Shown one piece after another: positions 6,992 through 54,548 of a stretch of 64,000 nt of DNA. A program made the translations under genes and the position numbers. The DNA comes from Ignavibacteriales bacterium (lineage in GTDB: Bacteria; Bacteroidota; Ignavibacteria; Ignavibacteriales; Melioribacteraceae): assembly GCA_026390795.1 (NCBI GenBank), contig JAPLFG010000003.1, positions 1,860,001-1,924,000 of the forward strand, given 5' to 3'. The notes under the pieces are model-generated. The model was given only the letters and a program-made list of their open reading frames with translations, was not told where the DNA came from and ran no database searches. Each line of letters starts with the position of its first letter. Position 1 is the stretch's first letter.

Positions 6992-7064
6992 AGCTGGCTA
7001 TGGGACTCGAACCCGCGACCTGCTGATTACAAATCAGCTGCTCTACCAACTGAGCTAAGCCAGC
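6992..7064 (-). tRNA. tRNA-Thr (anticodon TGT)
   Basis: Read on the minus strand, GCTGGCT/AGCCAGC acceptor arms enclose a D-arm (TAGCTCAGTTGGTAGAGC), an anticodon arm with loop TTTGTAA (anticodon TGT at the 34-36 positions), and the T-arm with GGTTCGAGTCC. The encoded 3' end is the discriminator T; CCA is not encoded. Terminator at 6953-6987. It borders the accessory region, a common integration point. Confidence 0.95.
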
Positions 7065-34793: not shown

Positions 34794-36622
34794 CAAAATT
34801 CATTTATTATTCCAAAATGTATTTTTCCATCACCGAAGGAATCTCCTTTAGCAAGAGCAAAACTTACACCCAGAACACCAAGACCGGTCTCAATATTCAG
34901 ACCAAAGCCGTAACCGATCTTAAAAGAAGAAATCTCCGGAATGTTTTTCTGTTTATCCTCGTTGCGTAAAAAATATCCGCTGTCGAGAAACAGAAATGTA
35001 AACGAACGTTTAGAGAGAAGAAATCTGTATTCAAGATTAGACCAAAAAATTCTGTTGCCTTGGAATTGCTTCTCTCTATATCCGCGTAAAGTATTTGCAC
35101 CGCCGAGAAAATACAAATCACTTAAATCTGTGTTGTCTCCTCGTAATTCGCGACCGTGAACACCTATAGCAGCAACCTGTTTCTGAAAGAGTTGACTGAA
35201 AATAGTAAAATCGAATTCCAATCGCTGCAGTGAAATATTCAATTTTGTATCTGGAGTTATAAATCCGGTCGGACCGTTTATTCTTTTCGAAATGAATTTG
35301 TAACTATTATTTAAATAAATTCCTTTTGTCGGAGCGTAAAAATCATCGCGGGTATCAATTCTAAAATTAACTCCGGTTGTGAAAGAAGTGGAATTAAATA
35401 CGGTAGAGTTTTGTGAATTCAGTTCTGATGGAATAGTGGATTGTGTACCGATAATAATTGAAGCGGAAATTTCATCTGTCGCCAAATATTCCAAACTTCC
35501 TTCGAGGTTGCGCTGAACATAAGTTGAATCCTGTTTTCGCTGCAGTAATGAGCCTTCAATATTAAACGGGAGATCAAAGAGCCAGGGTTCAAGATAATGC
35601 AGCTCAAGTTCTTGAGAAGAACGGTTCTCCTGCTGCCATCGGAATGATGCCGCGCGGCCTGTTCCAAATAGATTGCGCATGTTAACATTTATAAAACCCG
35701 TTAAATAACCTCTCTCTTTATCATTTACTGCGGGCACATATCCAAGAATTCCGTCAAAATAATTTGTCTGCTTTTCTTTTATAGATATTTTTAAGACACC
35801 TTCTTGTTTGGAGTTAAAATAAAACTCCGGCTGTTCAACCGGTTCAAAGAAACGTAAACGGTTTAAACGGTCCGGTATTTCATCAATTTTTTTTTGAGAA
35901 TACTCTTGGCCTGTTTTTAAATGTAAAGCACGTGTAATTACAAAATCTTTTGTTCTGTCATTGCCCTGAATTTCTATCTTGTCGATTTTACTTTTAACGC
36001 CTTCATCGATGTAAAGAATAAGATTAGCAAAGCGGTCTTCATTTGTCTCTTCGCCGGAAGGATTTGTAAGTTCAACGGATTCAATTCTTATTGAAGAAAA
36101 CGGGTAACCAATATTTTCATAATAATCTAGAACTTCAGAAAGAGCGAAGCTCATATTAGCGTTTGTTAACGGTTGGTTTTCAAGTTGAGAGAGAATTTCT
36201 GCTATCCGGGTTGAATCTTTAACTGCTCTACCAAATTTTATTTTATTGATGAGAGTTGGCTTACCTTCAGAAACATTTATAAAGAGCGAAGAATTTACCG
36301 AATCAATTTTTTCAATCACAATTTTACGAATGGAAGAGTTAAGATATCCTCTCTCTTCCAAAGCGGAAGTGATTCTAGATTTTACCGAGTCTTCCAATCC
36401 GGCAAAATATTTAGAGCCCGTTGAAATTTTAGACCAGCTCAAATAGTCATTTGCCGAAAATACTTTTTCTCCTGTGATCTGGATTCTTGAAATTGTTTGA
36501 GAGAATGAATTTATGATGATTATGAAATAAATAATGAAAGTTAGATTCGTAAAAGAACGCAGGTGACGCTGATTATTATGAGTAACGAGAATTAGATCAT
36601 GAATAATCTTAATTATCTCCAT
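34793..36622 (-). CDS. BamA/TamA-family outer-membrane assembly protein
   Basis: A 609-residue Omp85 protein: N-terminal export segment, POTRA-like domains (about 45-285; e.g. ISRIQITGEKVFSANDYLSW, KIDKIEIQGNDRTKDFVITR) and a C-terminal 16-strand-type barrel with the L6 motif near residue 515 (GGANTLRGYREKQFQGN). It is smaller than BamA and may be a TamA-like or accessory Omp85. The first 30 codons (MEIIKIIHDLILVTHNNQRH) are unusual: they are composed of two repeat families (36553-36574, 36580-36619) before the hydrophobic LTFIIYFIIIINSFSQ signal core. It is coupled to rnhB by TGATG. Confidence 0.85.
   Translation of the reverse strand: MEIIKIIHDLILVTHNNQRHLRSFTNLTFIIYFIIIINSFSQTISRIQITGEKVFSANDYLSWSKISTGSKYFAGLEDSVKSRITSALEERGYLNSSIRKIVIEKIDSVNSSLFINVSEGKPTLINKIKFGRAVKDSTRIAEILSQLENQPLTNANMSFALSEVLDYYENIGYPFSSIRIESVELTNPSGEETNEDRFANLILYIDEGVKSKIDKIEIQGNDRTKDFVITRALHLKTGQEYSQKKIDEIPDRLNRLRFFEPVEQPEFYFNSKQEGVLKISIKEKQTNYFDGILGYVPAVNDKERGYLTGFINVNMRNLFGTGRAASFRWQQENRSSQELELHYLEPWLFDLPFNIEGSLLQRKQDSTYVQRNLEGSLEYLATDEISASIIIGTQSTIPSELNSQNSTVFNSTSFTTGVNFRIDTRDDFYAPTKGIYLNNSYKFISKRINGPTGFITPDTKLNISLQRLEFDFTIFSQLFQKQVAAIGVHGRELRGDNTDLSDLYFLGGANTLRGYREKQFQGNRIFWSNLEYRFLLSKRSFTFLFLDSGYFLRNEDKQKNIPEISSFKIGYGFGLNIETGLGVLGVSFALAKGDSFGDGKIHFGIINEF
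36553..36619. repeat. Repeats encoding the n-region of the BamA-like signal peptide
   Basis: On the minus strand, AATCAGCGTCACCTGCGTTC (family also at 3401-3446 and 53724-53752) follows GATAATTAAGATTATTCATG ATC, a variant of the GATTAAGATTATGATCATGA family. Both are in frame with the BamA-like ORF. Confidence 0.5.
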
Positions 36623-42730: not shown

Positions 42731-43597
42731 TTATTTCCTCTTCGATTTAAGTTCACCGGCAAGACCGGAATAACTGCTTAGTTCGGCATCAATCGATCCA
42801 ACTAGTACTTTCGTTTTTACTTTTACAGGAATTCTTAATACATCGTCGGTGAGCCAGATAACAATACTTCCTTCGTTTTTAAAGAGTCCGCCTTCCCGAA
42901 CAAGAGGTTCCAAAATAATGCAGTCAAACTTTCCAGCCAAAACAGAAACCGTTTCCTTTCCTTTATAAAGAATTTCAAGAGGATAAGTTCTGTCCTTATA
43001 AAAATTTTCAAGATGAAATTTATCGCCCTCTTTCAACTTCGAATAATCAAAAGTGCGGGCGAGATATAATGCAGAAACAATATCGTTTACATATTTCGGA
43101 ATATCGTAAGAGCCTTCGGAAGTTTTAGCTTTATTTTTTCGCTGATCGAAGAACGCGGAAAAATCGCGCGAGTATCCGCCTTCTCTAATATGCTGTTCGA
43201 AACGCCACGGGAATATTCCTTGAACATCAATGAATGTTTCGTAATGATCGCGTACTTTGTAAAAGGAATCGAATGTTGAAACAGAGCTAACGTTAAATGT
43301 TACATTGTAAACATCCCGTCCCGCGATCTTTACAATTCTTGGAATTGAATATTCGGCATAACCAGCTGTAATAAAACCATAATTGACTTCAAATGTAAGT
43401 AACTCGCCAACCTTGAATGCTTTGTTCTCAATTTTTCGGAATTCACTTTTTTGTGAATATAAGTTCCCGGAAGAGACGAGTAAGATCAAGAAAAAGATTA
43501 GGGAATTCCTCAAAACCGAGTCATGATTCTTACTCTTGATCCTGCTCATAATCATGATCTTCTCGTTAAAATTTATAACCCAAACTCCAAACTTCAT
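42731..43597 (-). CDS. DUF3108-domain exported protein
   Basis: A 288-residue protein with a hydrophobic export segment (NSLIFFLILLVSSGNLYSQ) after an unusually long charged N-terminus, then a DUF3108 domain: VGELLTFEVNYGFITAGYAE, KVRDHYETFIDVQGIFPWRF, GSYDIPKYVNDIVSALYLAR and LTDDVLRIPVKVKTKVLVGS. DUF3108 proteins are periplasmic beta-rich proteins of unknown function. The start overlaps the GT9 stop by four bases (ATGA). The n-region (EKIMIMSRIKSKNHDS) is encoded by a repeat of the GATCATGATTATGA family. Confidence 0.85.
   Translation of the reverse strand: MKFGVWVINFNEKIMIMSRIKSKNHDSVLRNSLIFFLILLVSSGNLYSQKSEFRKIENKAFKVGELLTFEVNYGFITAGYAEYSIPRIVKIAGRDVYNVTFNVSSVSTFDSFYKVRDHYETFIDVQGIFPWRFEQHIREGGYSRDFSAFFDQRKNKAKTSEGSYDIPKYVNDIVSALYLARTFDYSKLKEGDKFHLENFYKDRTYPLEILYKGKETVSVLAGKFDCIILEPLVREGGLFKNEGSIVIWLTDDVLRIPVKVKTKVLVGSIDAELSSYSGLAGELKSKRK
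43521..43562. repeat. GATCATGATTATGAGCAGGATC-type repeat in the DUF3108 N-terminus
   Basis: The plus strand reads TCATGATTCTTACTCTTGAT, then CCTGCTCATAATCATGATCT. It closely matches TCATGATCTTGCTCTTAATC TTGCTCATGATCT at 51494-51526 beside the four-helix-bundle gene. Confidence 0.55.
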
Positions 43598-51383: not shown

Positions 51384-51399
51384 TTTCTAACCTTTATTC

Positions 51400-51712
51400 T
51401 TTTTCATAATCATGCTCATGAACTTATTCTGGCACTTGCTTTCTTAAAAGATGATTAAGATTATGATCACGAATATGATCATGATTATTCCCTTCATGAT
51501 CTTGCTCTTAATCTTGCTCATGATCTATTTTGCAATTGTTTACTTTTTCATGCTCATGATCTTGTTCATCTTCATGATTTTGATTTCTTATAAGACGATT
51601 AAGATTATGATCACGATTACGATTATGACAGTTTCTTTCATAACCATGCTCATGATCTTGCATTCTTAAAAGCTGAATAAGATTATTACCATGATTACGA
51701 TCAAGATTTTAG
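51400..51712. repeat. Hairpin repeat array, left side of the four-helix-bundle gene
   Basis: Alternating arms of the type GATTAAGATTATGATCACGA and TCATGATCTTGCTCTTAATC surround a conserved short loop TTCTTAnAAG at 51441-51450, 51585-51594 and 51663-51672. Exact copies of GATTAAGATTATGATCAC lie at 51453-51470 and 51597-51614. Arms and loop together can fold into imperfect hairpins about 70-80 bases long. It fills the space between miaB and the gene at 51721; an open frame through it is a low-complexity artefact. Confidence 0.8.
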
Positions 51713-51720
51713 TAATATTA

Positions 51721-52119
51721 TTACTCGTAATTTCCTTGAGTTTCATATACTCTATCAGAATTACTTTTTATTAATCCCATTAACATATTAATAACATCTT
51801 TTAAAATAACTTTACCCTCTTCTCTATCTTTATAATCAATTAGATTCCTCGCAAATAGAACATCCAGGCAACCCGCACATTCCATAGCTGAACCTCGGGA
51901 AATATCAAAATATCTGCATCTGTCTTTTGGTAGAAATTTTCCATTTCCCTCGGATATATTCAATACTATTGATTCAGATGCTCTTTCTAGTTGATCTTTG
52001 GTTGAACTCCTGATCTCGATTTTTTTTAACAGCGAATCGGTCCATTTTACAAATTCGATAGCTCTTTGATATACACGTAATTTTTCATGATCGAAAAAGT
52101 ATTTTTCAGTCTCTTCCAT
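51721..52119 (-). CDS. Four-helix-bundle protein (23S rRNA intervening-sequence / S23 family)
   Basis: A 132-residue helical protein of the S23/IVS family. Characteristic segments are LRVYQRAIEFVKWTDSLLKK, DQLERASESIVLNISEGNGK and DRCRYFDISRGSAMECAGCL. Homologues are encoded inside intervening sequences of 23S rRNA, and the Avd accessory protein of diversity-generating retroelements has the same fold; neither 23S rRNA nor a reverse transcriptase is present here. GAGGTTGAAAA precedes the ATG. The gene is bracketed by GATTAAGATTATGATCATGA hairpin repeats on both sides (51400-51712, 52153-52280), suggesting a compact element. Function is not established. Confidence 0.9.
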   Translation of the reverse strand: MEETEKYFFDHEKLRVYQRAIEFVKWTDSLLKKIEIRSSTKDQLERASESIVLNISEGNGKFLPKDRCRYFDISRGSAMECAGCLDVLFARNLIDYKDREEGKVILKDVINMLMGLIKSNSDRVYETQGNYE

Positions 52120-52152
52120 TTTTCAACCTCACACATATTCTTTCTTATGATT

Positions 52153-52280
52153 TTACTCTTTTTCATGATCTTGCTCTTAATCTTAATCATGATATTTCTT
52201 AGAAGCCGATTAAGATTATGATCATGATTACGATCATGACTATTCGTCTCATGATCATGTTCTTGATCTTAATCTTTTTT
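52153..52280. repeat. Hairpin repeat array, right side of the four-helix-bundle gene
   Basis: TTTCATGATCTTGCTCTTAA, loop TTCTTAGAAG (52196-52205), then GATTAAGATTATGATCATGA (52208-52227) TTACGATCATGAC, a short loop TATTCGTC, and the inverted arm TCATGATCATGTTCTTGATC TTAATC. The last two arms make a stem of about 30 bases. A further short copy lies at 52539-52561 and one at about 53777-53797. Confidence 0.8.
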
Positions 52281-52424: not shown

Positions 52425-52662
52425 ACATTTTAGCTCTTTCTTAACAATATAAAACAGGAATAGAAAACTTTATTACCGAAAGGGGATGAAAAATTATGAA
52501 GAATGAAACTGATATACAATATTATATGAAGAGTATAAGGATTATGATCATGCTCTTGATCTATATAATTGCCTACTCATTGTGAAAATCTGAATTCCAT
52601 TAGTTTGTAAGTGATATGAAGCTTAATTAATTTGGAAACAATAATTGAGTAAAAATGTTATT

Positions 52663-53478
52663 ATGATTAACCAGCTCAAAAAACTTGCCGCTGAAAAAGC
52701 TGTTGAAGAAATCTCATCCGGAATGATTGTCGGACTCGGTTCCGGCAGTACATTTCAATTCGCTCTTGAAAAAATTTCGGAGAAGATAAAAAATGGAGAG
52801 TTAAAAAATATCGAGTGCATTCCAAGTTCTGTTAGAACGGAAACTGAGGCAAAGAGGCTCGGAATACCGTTAATCAGTTTTGGAGAATTGATTAAGAAAC
52901 GTGAAAATGAAGAAGTGAAAAGTGAAACGGAAGATGAAAAACCACAGACGAAATTAGATCAAACAAAATCACCAGCACCCCGTTTCCCGTCTTCCGTTTC
53001 CCGTCTTCCGTTTATAGACATCACTATTGACGGCGCCGATGAAGTGGATGAAGAACTCAATCTTATTAAAGGTGGCGGAGGTGCTCTTCTTCGAGAAAAA
53101 ATTTTAGCTCAGGCAAGTAAAAGGTTGGTCATAGTTGTTGATGAGTCAAAACTTTCAAAACATCTTGGTACAAAATGGGCGGTGCCGGTTGAAGTAATTC
53201 AATTTGCTGCAGATGTAGAACAAAAATTTTTAGAAGCACTCGGTGCTGAAGTTGTAAGAAGAAAAAATGCTGAGGGAAAAGATTATATAACAGACGAAAA
53301 TAATTTTATACTTGATGCAAACTTCGGTTCGATAAAAAATGTAAATGAACTTTCATCCTTATTAAATCAGCGTGCGGGAATTGTTGAGCACGGTTTATTT
53401 GTTGGAATGACAAGCGAAGTTATATGCGCAATGAATGACGGGACTGTAAGCGTGAAGCAATCAGCTATTAGCCTTTAG
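52663..53478 (+). CDS. rpiA: Ribose-5-phosphate isomerase A with a repeat-derived insertion
   Basis: The pentose-phosphate enzyme interconverting ribose 5-phosphate and ribulose 5-phosphate. Motifs: IVGLGSGSTFQFALE, CIPSSVRTETEAKRLGIPL, DITIDGADEVDEELNLIKGG GGALLREKI, DESKLSKHLG and LPVE-equivalent VPVEVIQFA; catalytic residues appear present. ATG 52663 is used; a TTG lies 18 bases upstream. At 271 residues it is about 40 longer than usual because residues 77-117 (ENEEVKSETEDEKP...RFPSSVSRLPF) interrupt the region between LISFGEL and IDITIDGADE. The final codons and stop (KQSAISL) are part of an AGCTATTAGC repeat. Confidence 0.92.
   Translation: MINQLKKLAAEKAVEEISSGMIVGLGSGSTFQFALEKISEKIKNGELKNIECIPSSVRTETEAKRLGIPLISFGELIKKRENEEVKSETEDEKPQTKLDQTKSPAPRFPSSVSRLPFIDITIDGADEVDEELNLIKGGGGALLREKILAQASKRLVIVVDESKLSKHLGTKWAVPVEVIQFAADVEQKFLEALGAEVVRRKNAEGKDYITDENNFILDANFGSIKNVNELSSLLNQRAGIVEHGLFVGMTSEVICAMNDGTVSVKQSAISL
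52891..53013. repeat. Palindromic in-frame insertion in rpiA
   Basis: Arm one: GTGAAAAGTGAAACGGAAGA TGAAAAA (52915-52941). Arm two: two copies of GTTTCCCGTCTTCC (52982-53010). The arms are imperfectly complementary (GAAACGGAAGA / TCTTCCGTTTC). It is a multiple of three and preserves the frame. Confidence 0.65.
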
Positions 53479-54548
53479 CTATTAGCTTTTAGTTGTCGGT
53501 TGTCAGATTTCAGTTATCGGTTGTGGATTGTTAGTTGCTAGCTGGAGATTCTAAAGTATTGGTAACCTGAACAGAAAAAAAACTCATAAAGCAATTGAGA
53601 GCAGTAAACCTGAACGCCTCTCTTGATTCGTTCCAAGAAAATTACTTTTGAAACTCAAGCAATGTCGTTTGATCATTTAATAAAATACATTTCTATCAAA
53701 TTGAATAATCTGAGCAAATCATAATCGATCAGCGTAATCCGTGTTCTATTAAGCACTATGAATTGCACGGCGACTATGATCAAGATTATGATTAAACACT
53801 CTATAAACTCTATCCGAAATTCTCAATTGGCAATTATCAATTCTCAATTGCTTTTTCTGGCATGATGATTGAATATATGGGCTGTCGGAAAAAAGGTAAA
53901 CAGAAATAAAAAAAATATTTCATTAATAAAGTGTTTTTATTCGCTTAAAAAGCGGAAAACATCTTGTTTAATTCTTTGGAGATTATAACTTAGTGCGAAT
54001 AATTCTACAGAACTGCGAATATTTTACGTATCAAACCCCCATCAGCCGTCAGCTATCAGCTGTCAGTTATCAGCTCATTTACGAAAAGCTAAACACTAAG
54101 TCTTTATTGATCGAAGGCAACTCACATTTCACTAATTATGATTCTGTTAATTGTTTTAAAAAAAGTTGACAAGATTAAGATGAATAACTATCTTTTAAAT
54201 AGTGACAATGAAAATTTCCTAACACACAAGGAAATTTCTCTTTTTTCAACAAAAAACTTTCTTAAACAAAGTAAAGGATTTTTTTGTTTGAAGCTTGCTT
54301 TTTTTTACTCTAACAATTATCTTAAAGTAAATTTTTACAATAATTATATTAAACGTATAAAAACATTGAACTTAACTTTCAAAAATCTTTATTTTAATTC
54401 TAAAACTAATTCATCTATTATTCTAAATGATAAGGAGGAACTACATGCAAACACGCCTACCGACCTAGGGGGCAATTTAAATTTTATATTTTTGTGTGTA
54501 TGTAACATTTTTTTATTTTTTATTTATTTAACTAACTAGGAGATTCAA
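53479..54548. other. Long intergenic region with four repeat families and a 5' leader
   Basis: From left: AGCTATTAGC-type repeat (to 53545), an AATCGATCAGCGTAATCCGT stretch (53724-53752), a GATCAAGATTATGATTA copy (53777-53797), an AATTGATAATT copy (53820-53852), an AGCTATCAGCTGTCAG copy (54041-54075), then a very AT-rich leader of about 400 bases before the giant gene, containing a seven-codon ORF with a strong ribosome-binding site. The 133-codon frame across the leader has no protein-like character. Confidence 0.55.
54445..54468 (+). CDS. Candidate seven-residue leader peptide (MQTRLPT)
   Basis: TAAGGAGGAACTAC, a near-ideal Shine-Dalgarno spacing, precedes an ATG followed by six codons and TAG. 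It lies 81 bases before the giant secreted-protein gene, in its AT-rich leader. Such a well-placed ribosome site with a tiny ORF suggests translational control or mRNA protection; it could also be chance. Confidence 0.3.
   Translation: MQTRLPT

Follow-up and report, generated by a model that had tools for sequence, protein, structure and literature searches.

The closest described systems are the intervening sequences (IVSs) of rRNA genes. According to PMC4990558, the IVS in helix 45 of the Coxiella burnetii 23S rRNA has an open reading frame (ORF) for S23p, with tandem heptamers just ahead of it, and a terminal stem of 28 bp, and rRNA IVSs are cut by RNase III in their complementary ends. 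The same paper describes a patchy distribution and a suspected mobile-element origin, and calls the origin and function of rRNA IVSs and of the S23 protein unclear. S23 ORFs are also reported within rRNA insertions of CPR bacteria (PMC11270868), and the Pfam family PF05635 is discussed as Avd-like in PMC10053308.

Two other kinds of element resemble the units described here. The RAYT/REP system also consists of a single gene with bracketing hairpins that occur solo as well, but its gene encodes a Y1 transposase and its palindromes are GC-rich. The arms of S23 units are made of periodic words that complement each other across the gene, and S23 itself is not known to have a catalytic activity. 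IS elements and MITEs share with S23 units a short length, inverted ends, presence or absence at orthologous sites and gene-less derivatives. Copies of one IS have common ends, while the ends of an S23 unit match each other and mostly not those of other copies, and no transposase is seen in the unit. Searches of the open PMC library, which has few subscription journals and no preprints, gave no paper whose title or abstract describes S23 or GxxExxY units of this free-standing, armed kind.

The S23 unit of the window

The DNA analysed, here called the window, is a 64-kb stretch of an Ignavibacteriales bacterium (assembly GCA_026390795.1, contig JAPLFG010000003.1, positions 1,860,001-1,924,000 of the forward strand); features are given in window positions, and the genome itself is called the own genome, or G000. 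An earlier note on this DNA had described an S23 gene flanked by hairpin repeats and suggested a mobile element akin to rRNA IVSs. Its observation is confirmed and its interpretation partly supported.

The gene (51721-52119, minus strand) encodes a four helix bundle protein of 132 aa, which belongs to the S23 family by two profiles above their curated cut-offs: 74.2 bits to PF05635 (cut-off 33.8) and 64.8 to TIGR02436 (cut-off 24). PF05635 is the sole Pfam profile above cut-off in the protein; the same Pfam scan gave no Y1 transposase (PF01797). The own genome has 17 PF05635 matches and, as the earlier note had it, only this one falls in the window. The gene shares its strand with miaB, which lies downstream of it, and is divergent from rpiA (both names come from the earlier note and agree with our reading of the sequences), so that its ORF, like that of an rRNA IVS, would be in sense with the host transcript.

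The flanks of the gene are complementary to each other over 28 nt (89%), the unit thus having complementary ends like an rRNA IVS. Self-comparison and an inverted-repeat scan place the 5' arm, in gene sense, at 52249-52276 and the 3' arm at 51457-51484 (minus strand). This pair, which brackets the gene, is the single inverted repeat scoring at least 36 within about 1 kb in the 64-kb window, and one block-shuffled window gave none. Each flank is also partly palindromic and built of word arrays with a six-base step (GATTAA GATTAT GATCAT ...). The 5' flank forms a local hairpin at 52154-52242, in which 52154-52188 pairs with 52208-52242 (74% complementary) around a loop with TTCTTAGAAG. In the 3' flank (51399-51708; repeat families D1, D2 and D5) a hairpin unit is reiterated with three TTCTTAnAAG loops, and a six-base-step array lies at 51595-51628. 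The identical 18-base words noted earlier are there (51453-51470 equals 51597-51614, and 52208-52225 matches at 17 of 18 positions), as is TTCTTAnAAG at four sites (51441-51450, 51585-51594, 51663-51672 and 52196-52205).

The same words recur beyond the unit, on the rpiA side at 52539-52561 (repeat family D3) and, by eye, past rpiA at 53777-53797 and at 43521-43562; a further position claimed for the repeat family, 36580-36619, fits weakly. If up to 3 mismatches are allowed, one 21-base word from this family has 15 matches in the own genome, 7 of them at the window element, and none when read backwards. Folded as RNA, as the earlier note had proposed, 51400-52280 lies below its shuffles on both strands (20 shuffles each; sense z -4.0, antisense z -6.4).

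An Rfam search of the window and of 15 other S23 loci of the own genome gave no rRNA and a single tRNA (6992-7064); the window unit does not lie within an rRNA gene. Because these loci are not next to rRNA, we class their units as an IVS-like variant and not as IVSs. Compared with the rRNA IVS as described in PMC4990558, the units are alike in a sense S23 ORF, complementary ends, heptamers and patchy distribution, and the likeness proposed in the earlier note thus reaches the heptamer words upstream of the ORF. They differ in that rRNA IVSs lie inside rRNA and are excised by RNase III, whereas S23 units occupy gaps between protein genes, and one genome can have as many as 17 of them.

S23 genes between matching arms

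When the flanks of the other own-genome S23 genes were read, many of these genes were found between reverse-complement arms whose sequence differs from copy to copy. To score this, we aligned the 200 bp left of each gene locally with the reverse complement of the 200 bp to its right, and called a locus armed at a score of at least 28. The genus sample started from 117 PF05635 matches in 14 genomes; 13 were dropped (second gene pieces, fragments, contig-end copies and copies not fetched), 104 were used and 101 scored, three having short flanks, and many of the 104 are orthologous and hence not independent. The broad set holds the best 80 of 584 confirmed relatives on named genome contigs, mostly Bacteroidota, with 77 scored. 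A third sample of 27 S23 loci came from further genomes of the phylum, with 24 scored.

Armed loci made up 60/101 of the genus sample, against 0.7% of 1128 decoy positions; partners mismatched within a genome reached 28 in 1.2% of 970 cases, and partners from other genomes in 2.1% of 9130. In the broad set (best 80 of 584), 50/77 were armed against 0.7% of 1582 decoys, and mismatched partners reached 28 in 5.4% of 5852, a rate raised by TTAGAT-like words that recur. In the third sample 10/24 loci were armed, and the threshold was reached by 1.5% of 341 decoys and by 0.9% of 552 mismatched partners. Weak or no arms, below score 28, were found at 41/101, 27/77 (best 80 of 584) and 14/24 loci. 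By their titles, the 50 armed loci of the broad set (best 80 of 584) include Gracilibacteria, Peregrinibacteria, Clostridia, Fibrobacter, KSB1 and Desulfosarcina, while an Oscillospiraceae locus of that set was not armed. The repeat association proposed from one locus is therefore seen in all three samples, above both decoys and mismatched partners.

When contig C4 of the own genome was scanned for inverted repeats with a cut-off of 36, it gave 3 pairs and its shuffle 1; no pair enclosed an S23 copy of that contig, so a scan at this cut-off misses most armed copies. In a scan for local hairpins with a cut-off of 34, C4 and the window had one each, both away from S23 units.

Placement and site occupancy

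Among the S23 genes with a neighbouring ORF of at least 80 aa within 450 bp, the upstream ORF was on the same strand in 97/98 and the downstream ORF in 92/98. In the broad set (best 80 of 584), the genes spanning S23 were co-directed in 69/75 cases, compared with 123/158 for other neighbours. Sixteen S23 sites are common to two or more genomes, and a tree of 95 S23 rows groups mostly by site and not by genome, from which it follows that most copies were inherited.

Orthologous sites with and without the unit, a check proposed in the earlier note, were found at three own-genome sites and at the window site, as for a mobile element, and may reflect gain or loss (the gene names at these sites are our reading of the sequences). 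Between preA and dihydropyrimidinase (L003) the own genome has a unit, G004, G007 and G008 have a gap of 30-32 bp, and G002 has an 85-bp hairpin of the same words and no gene; G001 and G005 have other contents, and G003 and G006 failed to align on one side or both. The G001 insert is presumably an ORF6N-like gene and has no arms by eye. Before hemB (L007) the gap is 7, 8 and 42 bp in G004, G007 and G006; one S23 clade occupies it in G000, G005 and G002, and a second, which has different words, does so in G003 and G009; G001 has 91 bp of other words. Between hemE and hemN (L004) an S23 unit or its remains are present in G000, G001, G003 and G005, and G008 has an S23 gene behind the same upstream gene. 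At this site G004 and G007 retain, by eye, remnants of the 3' arm, G006 has 107 bp, and G002 and G009 carry a GxxExxY unit instead of S23.

At the window site itself the unit is present in G000 and G005, and G001 has gene-less hairpins of the same words. G004 has a remnant by eye, G007 is empty, and the G002 contig ends within such words; by eye, no such words were seen in G003, G006 and G009, and the site was not found in G008, an assembly that is 66% complete. At another place in the own genome (G000:C2:267153-267775; L016 and L014), two S23 gene pieces have a GIY-YIG reading frame between them.

Words in the arms

S23 arms consist of imperfect tandem words, mostly of 7 nt, and of 6 nt in the clade of the window gene. 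Over the three sets, the best period in arms of at least 24 nt was 7 in 71/106, 8 in 20, 9 in 6 and 6 in 4. G outnumbers C in the 5' arm of 56/69 loci (the reverse in 6) and, in a second set, of 51/57 (the reverse in 3).

The idea that S23 genes have one cognate hairpin family did not hold: most copies have their own word, in which they also differ from rRNA IVSs, and only close protein relatives share one. The constant feature of S23 units is complementarity across the gene and not a common hairpin sequence. Terminal inverted repeats common to all copies, as in an IS or MITE, were not seen, mismatched same-genome pairs scoring 28 or more in 1.2% of 970. Among pairs from different sites, arm words were common in 12/20 with at least 60% protein identity and in at most 1% per class below 50%; in the broad set (best 80 of 584) the figures were 3/8 at 70-80%, 5/40 at 60-70% and 0.6% of 792 at 40-50%. 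Overall, arm words did not correlate significantly with protein distance (Spearman 0.04, with 51/500 permutations as high). Neither movement nor a recent jump that left near-identical S23 copies at different sites was seen; the closest pairs have about 72-76% protein identity, and several of these have common arm words.

At shared sites, arms score 34.6 within a copy and 26.6 between orthologues, the within-copy score being the higher in 41/55 pairs and at 12/15 sites. At most of these sites, then, the two arms change in concert. Exceptions are the window site (32.5 between orthologues, 28.5 within a copy) and two further shared sites, which show no within-copy gain. At the site between nuoC and nuoD (names read from sequence), the S23 proteins of G000 and G003 are related and the words on either side of them differ.

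The 21-base window word has 15, 53 and 20 matches in G000, G003 and G005, which carry the gene clade, and 11, 4, 0, 0, 3, 3, 7, 2, 0, 1 and 0 in the 11 other genomes; the backwards control gave 2 matches over all 14. That the word is commonest in clade carriers speaks for the suggestion that the protein helps to spread the repeats; that S23 proteins are mostly not basic, and that no movement was seen, speaks against it. Without its seven element matches, G000 has 8 copies of the word, fewer than G001 (11), a genome with hairpins but no S23 gene at the window site. Arm polarity and common words can stem from local repeat slippage. In one copy (L070, G009:C5:3401-3706) the arm words run opposite in direction to the gene when compared with its close protein relatives at site 7, as if gene or arms had been flipped.

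GxxExxY units and control gene families

A second protein family was found in the same setting. GxxExxY proteins correspond to PF13366, two copies being verified as TIGR04256, and all 21 matches of the 14 genomes were taken. Armed loci (score at least 28) made up 18/21, with mismatched partners at 10.7%, and 20/28 in a sample of the phylum, against 0.3% of 385 decoys. Co-directed neighbours on both sides were present at 18/21 and 22/28 loci. GxxExxY units therefore resemble S23 units in their matching repeated-word arms and mostly co-directed neighbours, but their protein is unrelated (PDDEXK_3 Pfam family), the 5' arm has no G-over-C bias (9 versus 8 of 20), and the word period is mostly 9 and not 7. 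The best period was 9 in 17/35 and 7 in 1/35, compared with 6/106 and 71/106 for S23 (Fisher p 7e-13). On this evidence GxxExxY genes appear to form a second kind of unit on the S23 plan, mostly with 9-nt words.

Two further families served as controls in the same 14 genomes: GIY-YIG, with 24 of the 30 fetched loci entered, and RAYT, with 26 of 30. GIY-YIG genes, which are of similar size, were rarely bracketed (2/23 at a score of at least 28), and had co-directed neighbours on both sides in 5/24. RAYT (PF01797) matches were found in all 14 genomes, and 16/24 copies were bracketed, by GC-rich REP-like hairpins of another kind. In G010 three GIY-YIG genes stand in tandem at each of two places (G010:C1:1733881-1734727 and 1384667-1385513), spaced by about 317 and 323 bp and with equal scores within a set.

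The S23 protein

The dN/dS medians over 11 sites range from 0.02 to 0.49 with a median of 0.12, values that are rough because dS is mostly above 1; the S23 protein is under purifying selection. The predicted model of the window protein is a helical bundle with a mean pLDDT of 92.7. In a Foldseek search it matched 2GSC and 2RLD, and after these S23 structures came Avd of DGR complexes (8UB7 and 4DWL; E 0.08 and weaker, TM 0.7). The solved relative is a pentamer. Nucleic-acid binding was considered from charge and is unsupported, since S23 proteins are mostly not basic: the median pI is 8.0 in the relatives and 5.9 in the broad set (best 80 of 584).

One S23 paralogue (L015, L095, L096, L097, L100, L102, L103 and L104) occupies one site in 8 genomes of the genus and has no arms. 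It is highly conserved (dN/dS 0.02), a natural contrast to the armed copies, and is perhaps a copy taken into host use.

Interpretation

We read the window unit as a member of a class of small mobile elements that are free-standing relatives of rRNA IVSs, and give this reading a probability of about 0.55. The unit would be about 0.5-0.9 kb long, with one S23 gene between reverse-complement arms of an imperfectly repeated word. It would enter intergenic gaps of transcribed gene rows and be expressed by read-through. The S23 protein would act on the arms, most likely as hairpins at the DNA level; because the unit encodes no recognisable transposase, we suppose that host or trans-acting recombination enzymes assist it. 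Loss of the gene would leave solo hairpins or remnants. The match between the arms might persist through a need for the hairpin, or through template switching, in which one arm serves as the template for the other.

A wider reading, which we hold tentatively and at somewhat less than even odds, is that unrelated proteins (S23 and GxxExxY) travel between matched arms, with word length tied to the protein family and the word drifting from copy to copy, and that the rRNA IVS is a member that landed in rRNA. The arm pair would then be renewed as a pair, and the protein or its machinery would therefore recognise a period and a hairpin and not one set sequence. Terminal repeats as generally known are different, for here the two ends match each other and mostly do not match the ends of other copies. 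A tie between word length and protein family makes for a concrete prediction in biochemistry. If this wider reading is true, it would explain the source of rRNA IVSs. Should the free-standing S23 unit be the general form, its copies in rRNA would be a special case, and the matter could be put to the test in those Bacteroidota genomes that have a dozen copies. With PF05635 matches in 30/41 genomes and PF13366 matches in 22/41 (the own genome and 40 drawn from the phylum), units and solo hairpins may shape operons widely.

The arms might instead work in RNA: paired in the operon transcript, they would form a stem that RNase III cleaves, and the S23 stretch would drop out, which would leave the insert harmless or let it tune the operon; selection would act on the RNA stem and spread would depend on rare DNA events. 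The apparent sense placement in transcribed gene rows agrees with this, as does the rRNA precedent of RNase III cuts in complementary ends (PMC4990558), and the arms pair in predicted sense folds of 53/60 armed loci and of 38/50 in the broad set (best 80 of 584). Antisense folds, however, pair them about equally (49/60, and 45/50 in the best 80 of 584). Sense G.U pairs are not in excess over A.C mismatches (109 versus 118, and 59 versus 90 in a second set), and sense duplexes are not stabler than antisense ones: 26 versus 36 and, in a second set, 16 versus 37, with p 0.008 the other way. Whole-element sense folds are lower in 47/60 relatives but in 29/50 of the broad set (best 80 of 584), and we suppose that the preference in relatives is due to coding composition. 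An RNA-level role of the arms is thus weakened by the pairing tests and kept alive by sense placement and the rRNA precedent, and we regard it as unlikely, though still to be reckoned with. We think it rather improbable that dispersed word arrays are primary, with S23 and GxxExxY as cargo in or between them; such arrays would owe their spread to recombination, to slippage during replication or to other enzymes, for instance the RAYTs of these genomes. Solo arrays and hairpins do occur without a gene and RAYTs are present throughout the genus sample, but the RAYT brackets are of another kind, word period depends on the gene family, GIY-YIG genes of like size are not bracketed, and the window word is commonest where the cognate gene clade is present.

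That S23 is an ordinary operon gene, flanked by hairpins serving as regulatory or processing sites of the host, would account for vertical inheritance by site, purifying selection, operon placement and the one conserved armless site in 8 genomes. We consider such host modules quite improbable, in view of the patchy presence among close relatives, the empty and hairpin-only sites, neighbour genes unrelated in function, and single gaps filled by different S23 clades or by GxxExxY. A retroelement, in which S23 is the Avd-like helper of a reverse transcriptase copying the excised hairpin RNA, could draw on the common fold of Avd and S23, on the Foldseek order, on the comparison of PF05635 with Avd (PMC10053308) and on sense placement. 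Avd belongs with the DGR reverse transcriptase, whereas the own genome, 100% complete and with its 17 S23 matches, has no PF00078 match, and the profile is present in 3/14 genomes; we reject the retroelement for these hosts and rate its chance as very small. An artefact of low-complexity flanks or AT-rich sequence we practically discount: the arms are repetitive and AT-rich, and similar recurring words lift mismatched partners in the broad set (best 80 of 584), but same-locus decoys and same-genome mismatched partners stay near 1% and the GIY-YIG control is negative.

Arrays and repeats outside the unit

Besides the words of the unit, the window has arrays with a 7-nt step that come without a gene, at 53455-53526, 53812-53852 and 54032-54077, the first of which overlaps the rpiA stop codon. 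Period-7 arrays number 8 in the window (other periods at most 4) and 5 in contig C4 (others at most 2), small numbers in each case, and shuffles of the window and of C4 gave none. Contig C4 also contains a perfect inverted repeat with 68-bp arms and a 6-bp loop (G000:C4:160705-160846), real or an assembly artefact. A further array with a 7-nt step (CCGTTTC CCGTCTT ...) lies at 52977-53014, inside the rpiA reading frame; its words match elsewhere in G003, G005 and G006, and the G005 alignment breaks there.
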